Source: an uncultured Lachnospiraceae bacterium (lineage in GTDB: Bacteria > Bacillota > Clostridia > Lachnospirales > Lachnospiraceae). Taken from it: a DNA stretch of 64,000 nt. Position 1 is the stretch's first letter; every line of letters starts with the position of its first letter. Under the pieces are notes generated by a model. It ran no database searches and had not been told where the DNA came from. It saw only the letters and a program-made list of their open reading frames with translations. A program made the translations under genes and the position numbers. This document shows, piece after piece, positions 44,541-45,080 of this stretch. The stretch is from the NCBI GenBank assembly GCA_934401915.1, contig CAKRSV010000004.1, forward strand, positions 186,001 through 250,000. Direction: 5' to 3'.

Positions 44541-45080
44541 ATGGAGACAGTAAATGTAACAGACGTACAGGACGAGAAGCAGGTCAGCCGGATTTTACAG
44601 AGCCTGATAGACGCGAACAAATCTTTTCAGATTATGATCACAGTAGATACCGAAGAGAGAAAAGAGACACAAGGAAGCCAAAGCGCACAGGAGAAGGTTG
44701 TTTTTGCAAAGACACAGCCGCCTGTGGTAAGAGACCTGGAGAAGGATGTTACAGATATGATCCATGAGATCGGGGTGCCGGCACATATCAAAGGATATCA
44801 GTATCTGCGGGAAGCGATCATGATGTCCGTACAGGATGTGGAGATGCTGGGCTCCATTACCAAGGTGTTGTATCCGACGATCGCGGGGAAGTTCCAGACG
44901 ACGCCGAGCCGTGTAGAAAGAGCGATCCGTCATGCGATCGAGGTGGCCTGGTCGAGAGGAAAGATGGAGACGCTGGACGGTCTGTTCGGCTATACGATCA
45001 ACACCGGAAAGGGAAAACCGACCAACTCGGAATTTATCGCCCTTATCGCGGATAAGATCCGTCTGCAGTACCGGGATTAA
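44541..45080 (+). CDS. Spo0A C-terminal DNA-binding domain protein lacking the receiver domain
   Basis: A 179-residue protein. Residues about 65-179 are a near-textbook Spo0A effector domain: TDMIHEIGVPAHIKGYQYLR, YPTIAGKFQTTPSRVERAIR, HAIEVAWSRGKMETLDGLFG and TGKGKPTNSEFIALIADKIR. The N-terminal 60 residues are not a response-regulator receiver: there is no acidic pocket and no phospho-Asp motif, and the upstream gene leaves no room for one. It would bind 0A-box DNA without phosphorylation control by a phosphorelay. The start is ATG 44541 with GGAGG 11 bases upstream; ATG 44520 is possible but has its GGGG only 2 bases away. Not broken: no frameshift remnant is visible. Confidence 0.85.
   Translation: METVNVTDVQDEKQVSRILQSLIDANKSFQIMITVDTEERKETQGSQSAQEKVVFAKTQPPVVRDLEKDVTDMIHEIGVPAHIKGYQYLREAIMMSVQDVEMLGSITKVLYPTIAGKFQTTPSRVERAIRHAIEVAWSRGKMETLDGLFGYTINTGKGKPTNSEFIALIADKIRLQYRD

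Follow-up and report, generated by a model that had tools for sequence, protein, structure and literature searches.

A spo0A gene with a truncated receiver

The window, which is the whole stretch of 64,000 nucleotides analyzed from an uncultured Lachnospiraceae bacterium, contains the probable native spo0A of a gut Lachnospiraceae clade. An in-frame internal deletion has probably removed most of the receiver, and the product would act independently of phosphorylation and might be controlled by its amount. The open reading frame (ORF; 44520 to 45080 on the forward strand) encodes 186 residues, or 179 if translation begins at the second ATG (44541), which is the likely start codon judging from the point where aligned relatives begin (Table 1). 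In the 186-residue reading, the Spo0A_C domain (PF08769) covers residues 77 to 180 with an E value of 6e-46. The recognition-helix stretch SRVERAIRHAIEVAWSRG also occurs in 1fc3 and 1lq1, two solved Spo0A structures that match the window protein at E values of about 1e-50, and a Foldseek search with the predicted model ranked solved Spo0A structures first (1lq1_D; E value of 5.6e-11). The first-pass annotation of this DNA had described a Spo0A effector domain with an intact recognition helix, and these matches bear that description out. The NCBIfam Spo0A model (TIGR02875) scored 202.9 bits against a cutoff of 200 while covering only model positions 127 to 259 of 262. Only about 65 codons lie ahead of the DNA-binding domain, and the receiver stump that they include stops before the region of the phospho-acceptor aspartate. 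Since the acceptor region is absent, phosphorylation-driven activation is not expected for this protein.

A frameshift or a sequencing error could in principle have hidden a receiver, as had been cautioned in the first-pass annotation. We set this explanation aside as unlikely because the same layout is found in 14 database proteins that are 99 to 100% identical to the window protein (P0001 to P0014), as well as in 25 relatives that are 64 to 79% identical and were obtained from a scan of genome contigs (L001 to L025). Public sources already name some of the near relatives "sporulation transcription factor Spo0A."

Table 1. Features of the spo0A region in the window
Feature	Coordinates	Strand	Basis
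dxs, tlyA, NAD kinase, argR, recN block	31639..37643	+	Ahead of spoIVB-spo0A in full-length relatives too
spoIVB	37712..39079	+	TIGR02860, E value of 5.8e-115, above cutoff; upstream in ancestral spo0A locus
GCGATG element, 37 bp 5′ of −10	44447..44452	+	Recurs at similar spacing in relatives
Likely −10 element (TATAAT) of spo0A promoter	44484..44489	+	Sequence
Receiver-truncated spo0A	44541..45080	+	PF08769, TIGR02875; relatives align from ATG 44541
Receiver stump (residues 1-36), aligning with beta1-alpha1-beta2 of full-length Spo0A	44541..44648	+	hhalign, nonsynonymous difference (pN)
Variable linker, residues 37-65	44649..44735	+	Length and sequence vary in alignment; pN 0.464; pLDDT mostly <50
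Spo0A DNA-binding domain, residues 66-179	44736..45077	+	PF08769, solved structures, Foldseek
Recognition helix, residues 122-138	44904..44954	+	Helix in both AlphaFold models; sequence as in 1fc3/1lq1
glgA, glycogen synthase	45183..46628	+	NF001898 above cutoff; ORF from 45141, start at 45183 is a reading

The N terminus matches the start of a Spo0A receiver

The first 64 residues had initially been regarded as unrelated to a receiver, which does not hold for the first half of that stretch. A profile built from the first 45 residues of 20 receiver-less proteins was aligned by hhalign with a profile of 33 full-length receivers, and residues 1 to 32 matched the N-terminal 32 residues of the receiver in full-length Spo0A (probability of 96.5%, E value of 9.3e-10). 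The alignment scored 49.5, whereas all 200 column shuffles scored lower (22.7 at best) and the reversed profile reached 11.2. In full-length proteins, this stretch is of the METLNVAIADDNER type with beta2 at its end, while receiver-less proteins carry the motif FQIMITVPS at that end, with F29, Q30, I31, I33, and V35 invariant among 26 aligned sequences. Two motif variants, FRILITV (G089) and LQINITI (G129), each occur in a single survey genome.

In 10 hand-picked close pairs, whose synonymous sites are saturated, the nonsynonymous difference per site was 0.020 in the DNA-binding domain, 0.077 in the stump, and 0.464 in the linker. The stump, with its much lower value than that of the linker, is therefore not drifting, and the comparison indicates that both the DNA-binding domain and the stump are under purifying selection. 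A folded N-terminal mini-domain with a beta-alpha-beta arrangement in the monomer was considered and found to be unsupported by two AlphaFold models, in which the stump forms only a helix at residues 12 to 24, with modest confidence and no strands.

The gene lies at the native spo0A locus

Gene order in the window runs from an ispA-type gene through dxs, tlyA, NAD kinase, argR, recN, and spoIVB to six other genes (39098 to 44442; five on the forward strand and one on the reverse strand), which separate spoIVB from spo0A, and then to spo0A and glgA; the NAD kinase and ArgR matches fall below their curated cutoffs. The recN-spoIVB-spo0A block is common to the window and to full-length loci. The part up to spoIVB lies directly 5′ of a full-length spo0A, followed by glgA, in the full-length loci L033, L040, and L071, and directly 5′ of the short spo0A in the receiver-less loci L001 and L005. 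In other receiver-less loci, spoIVB is farther from spo0A, for instance by about 24 kb in G003 and about 17 kb in G012, each on one contig, and glgA is present in all 26 receiver-less loci of the GlgA tree described below. The best reading of this gene order is that the window gene would be the organism's native spo0A ortholog minus most of the receiver rather than an extra stand-alone copy, and the simplest history would be an in-place, in-frame deletion within spo0A. As had been noted at first pass, no receiver is encoded upstream, and spo0A in the window has no receiver gene next to it. The small protein encoded directly upstream of spo0A (43801 to 44442) has weak similarity to Bud32-type kinases.

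The receiver-less form has one origin on the GlgA tree

A GlgA tree built with a quick method placed the 26 receiver-less rows on one side of a branch with an SH-aLRT support of 99. This clade is nested among full-length rows and adjoins Lacrimispora, Hungatella, and Lachnoclostridium. Trees of the Spo0A_C domain (119 columns) required two changes of the receiver-less label with 26 receiver-less rows and three changes with 46, and the 26 rows fell inside a supported set of 31 that includes five full-length Ruminococcus-type rows. The first of these trees left out L061, in which the motif is missing, and the second left out L062, L067, and one L064 copy (long branches) and G066 (motif missing); L037 was dropped from the trees as a fragment. 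The first-pass annotation had raised the question of whether receiver-less copies form a clade among Lachnospiraceae Spo0A_C domains. They do form one on the GlgA tree, and the claim is based on GlgA because the Spo0A_C domain alone does not give one clade. As the clade represents one evolutionary event, the counts reported within it are not independent.

Two further truncations look separate. L060 (G026) keeps a longer, degenerate first half of the receiver and groups with a full-length row on the GlgA tree (support of 92). In L227 (G301), the start of the receiver is joined to its last helix, and the nearest rows, without firm support, are full length.

Receiver-less genomes retain sporulation genes

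A profile search of the 25 receiver-less relatives, with about 59 to 60 candidates scored per genome, gave no normal full-length Spo0A among the matches listed in any of the 25 genomes, and the best Spo0A match among them began at model position 116 or later (at least 116) in every case. Full-length control genomes (G028 to G030) yielded Spo0A matches with E values of 1e-98 to 1e-104. The proposal that the short protein competes with a full-length Spo0A thus finds no support in the relatives, nor do they fit the picture of a single degenerate gene alongside a normal spo0A, the short gene being the ortholog at the spo0A locus.

A broken spo0A might also be an early step in a lineage that is losing sporulation, with the other sporulation genes not yet gone. 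In the same 25 genomes, SpoIIAB was found in all (all above cutoff), SpoIIGA in all (E value of <1e-20), SpoIVA in 24 (absent from G002; in two pieces in G013), SpoIIE in 23 (absent from G002 and G025), and SpoIVB in 23 above cutoff (absent from G017 and G020), with SpoIIGA and SpoIIE scoring below the curated cutoffs throughout the 30 genomes, which include the full-length ones. SpoIIE matches in G001 to G030 lacked the N-terminal part of the model, mostly in ORFs of 394 to 510 residues, except in G027 (736 residues), which has it; the membrane part may therefore be missing or unrecognized.

In a survey of 299 genomes of the family (about 8 candidates scored per genome in the Spo0A search), 194 genomes had a Spo0A match with an E value of at most 1e-40, and SpoIVA likewise had matches in 194, with an E value of at most 1e-60. 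Twenty-four genomes were classed as receiver truncated. Of these, 22 carry the main-type stump, G301 has a different one, and G066 has a frame-broken copy whose N terminus was not seen. SpoIVA was present in 23 of these 24 genomes; of the remaining Spo0A-positive genomes, 165 of 170 had it, compared with 6 of the 105 that lacked Spo0A. The absence of genes is uncertain, as the survey genomes are species representatives, many of them metagenome assembled. The six genomes with SpoIVA and no Spo0A match at 1e-40 (G047, G049, G071, G094, G164, and G230) may be incomplete assemblies or have another form of control.

A decaying relic would be consistent with the frame-broken copy in G066 and with the lack of SpoIVA in G236 as well as in G002. 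Loss of sporulation is, by the title of a reference in PMC11170972, common in gut Firmicutes, and the available text of PMC12536801 has a third-party predictor calling some Acetatifactor metagenome genomes non-sporulating. Against decay stand the purifying selection on the DNA-binding domain and even on the stump, the near-universal SpoIVA of the clade, and the rarity of SpoIVA in genomes that do lack Spo0A. On balance, we regard decay as unlikely and retain a functional native spo0A as the preferred reading.

0A boxes are kept before spoIIGA and rare at the spo0A promoter

In the 250 bp upstream of spoIIGA, the coding strand carried an exact TGTCGAA box in 17 of 44 receiver-less genomes (11/24 and 6/20), a count that leaves out G025 (contig end) and G302 (fragment match), versus 9 of 32 full-length genomes. 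A comparison set of 30 full-length genomes was hand-picked, mostly high scoring rather than random, and one of them, G174, gave no match. For the first 24 receiver-less genomes, 11 boxes were observed, whereas 500 dinucleotide shuffles averaged 0.26 and never exceeded 3, and a control stretch 300 to 1,300 bp upstream of spoIIGA had an exact box in 0 of 23. In genomes that have both a box and a TTGACA-like −35 element, the box is usually 32 to 43 bp 5′ of the latter, which is followed by a −10 element. Upstream of spoIIE, 11 of 23 genomes had a box, often TGTCGCA, that deviated by no more than one mismatch and lay 32 to 33 bp 5′ of TTTGACA, a count with no shuffle control, and an exact box occurred in only 2 of 23. 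No exact box was present within 1.5 kb before spoIIAB in any of the 20 receiver-less genomes scored. It was absent from the full-length genomes G028 to G030 too, and spoIIAB was dropped as a source of evidence.

The spo0A promoter gave a different picture in the two groups. At 30 of 41 full-length loci, the 200 bp before spo0A contained an exact 0A box on one strand or the other, versus 3 of 25 receiver-less loci. When up to one mismatch was allowed, a box 44 to 53 bp 5′ of the −10 element was found in 20 of 39 full-length promoters (L030 and L077 left out of the 41) versus 2 of 25 receiver-less promoters (Fisher P value of 4e-4, not corrected for kinship). In full-length promoters, this box usually lies 48 to 50 bp 5′ of the −10 element, and the window promoter has four mismatches at the corresponding position. 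Of the 25 receiver-less promoters, 14 had an exact GCGATG 36 to 39 bp 5′ of a −10-like hexamer, as did 3 of the 39 full-length ones; allowing one mismatch raised these counts to 20 and 10, respectively (0.3 and 0.5 on average in shuffles). The element, in its GCGATR form, also keeps a fixed spacing of 37 to 38 bp to the spo0A −10 element in some full-length relatives and is thus older than the deletion. Since the 0A box is rare at receiver-less spo0A promoters and GCGATG is kept, self-feedback by Spo0A seems to have been lost and another input retained.

Short Spo0A_C paralogs lie among sugar-transfer genes

A second short Spo0A_C copy, elsewhere in the genome, was found in 23 of the 25 receiver-less genomes at an E value of 1e-41 or better. 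By hand count in the Spo0A search of the survey, a second match at 1e-40 occurred in 21 of 24 receiver-truncated genomes versus 28 of 170 others, the latter including tandem and split genes. The paralogs (L111 to L130) are about 125 to 157 residues long, and at least one of six recurring neighbor families was present at 18 of 20 paralog loci; the examined members of these families are sugar transferases, sugar-nucleotide enzymes, or a membrane protein. Like the window gene, the paralogs encode a receiver-less Spo0A_C domain, but they differ by their own tree branch, an altered recognition helix (TTDQKVERAIRNAIEVSW in many), and sugar-transferase surroundings.

These surroundings, together with glgA adjoining spo0A, could suggest that the window protein has been repurposed to control other 0A-box genes (polysaccharide or glycogen genes) and that another factor starts sporulation. 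The position of glgA says little, because it adjoins full-length spo0A in relatives too, and the boxes kept before spoIIGA argue against such a change of role, which we consider quite improbable. A native regulator of sporulation is still favored.

Other arrangements were also encountered. Tandem spo0A genes are present in G027, G135, G159, and G216 (L064 at 487 to 2141, L221, L223, and L224). One copy in G027, G159, and G216 has asparagine at the expected phospho-aspartate (LNPVLP or LNAVLP instead of LDxxMP), and one tandem partner may therefore be unphosphorylatable.

A separate receiver and a phage source are poorly supported

Phosphorylation control might instead be restored in trans by a separate receiver protein or kinase that binds the stump. 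The constraint on the stump, including a D11 that all 26 aligned sequences share, would be compatible with this, as would divergent proteins combining a receiver with Spo0A_C in four receiver-less genomes (L308 to L311, in G013, G129, G249, and G116), where a phosphorylated Spo0A-like protein may thus exist; in G013, the gene adjoins one for a GHKL-type kinase. However, Asp10 of the aspartate pair of full-length proteins is not kept in the stump, and the window spo0A, as described above, has no adjoining receiver gene. Receiver-only ORFs matching the Spo0A model were sought in 12 genomes as candidates for a receiver on a separate gene. In 9 of the 12, these ORFs were CheY-like; the two checked by HMM were CheY, one of them lying beside FliY and FliP. 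Of the other three, L320 showed no such ORF, and those taken for L315 and L317 had no match. We judge split signaling to be very unlikely.

Replacement of the native gene by an effector-only Spo0A of phage origin is the least credible explanation, since, although the available part of PMC10294663 describes truncated Spo0A genes (effector domain without receiver) in gut phages and 14 of 50,697 phage records gave matches, the gene here keeps its native locus and a stump derived from the receiver, no phage match spans 80% of the protein, and the best 10 of the 14 all start at residue 44 or later. The window protein resembles these phage proteins, as far as that source describes them, in its effector domain without a receiver, but it is chromosomal, stands at the native locus amid housekeeping and sporulation genes as the only spo0A at the normal locus, and carries a constrained stump, so that it is not a bare effector domain.

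A possible route to sporulation without the receiver

The window protein shares with Spo0A as defined by TIGR02875 its orthologous position, DNA-binding domain, recognition helix, and early-gene boxes, but it lacks the phospho-acceptor part of the receiver and keeps beta1-alpha1-beta2 only. Spo0A phosphorylation is the accepted gate to sporulation, and the unphosphorylated receiver restrains the DNA-binding domain; removal of the receiver should therefore give a constitutively competent protein. The receiver-less Spo0A would bind 0A boxes without phosphorylation and still turn on sporulation genes, acting at spoIIGA and perhaps at spoIIE. Its activity might be set by the amount of protein, through a spo0A promoter that is devoid of the 0A-box feedback site and carries the GCGATR element, or alternatively by a partner that binds the stump. 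Among the roles offered in the first-pass annotation, that of a newly wired master regulator is the one favored by the evidence. A more detailed version, in which a spore-forming clade has a Spo0A that cannot be phosphorylated at the receiver, decides by amount with promoter 0A feedback gone, and uses the stump (FQIMITV) as a new module, for instance for self-association or partner binding, is plausible but held only tentatively.

The sad67 allele is itself an internal receiver deletion. According to the available part of PMC4689505, this constitutively active spo0A allele of Bacillus subtilis turns early sporulation genes on, and efficient sporulation needs a further condition, which fits control by amount plus other inputs. 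By analogy with what that text shows for sad67, activity without phosphorylation would be expected here as well. While sad67 is a laboratory allele, the deletion described here is natural and extends across a whole clade. We found no report of a clade-wide receiver-less chromosomal spo0A in one open-access library, which mostly lacks subscription papers.

The portion of PMC11170972 available to us describes some human-gut Lachnospiraceae as having "lost spo0A" although their sporulation gene set is rather complete, as judged by prokka annotation names. These genomes plausibly represent the same phenomenon, with the difference that a shortened spo0A is present here and none was recognized by name there; the shortened gene offers an explanation for that report. 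The receiver-less clade probably times spore formation by a route other than the Spo0A receiver. If so, a natural lineage would show that the phosphorylation gate to sporulation is replaceable, and the timing of spore formation and spread in gut commensals would become testable with a single gene.
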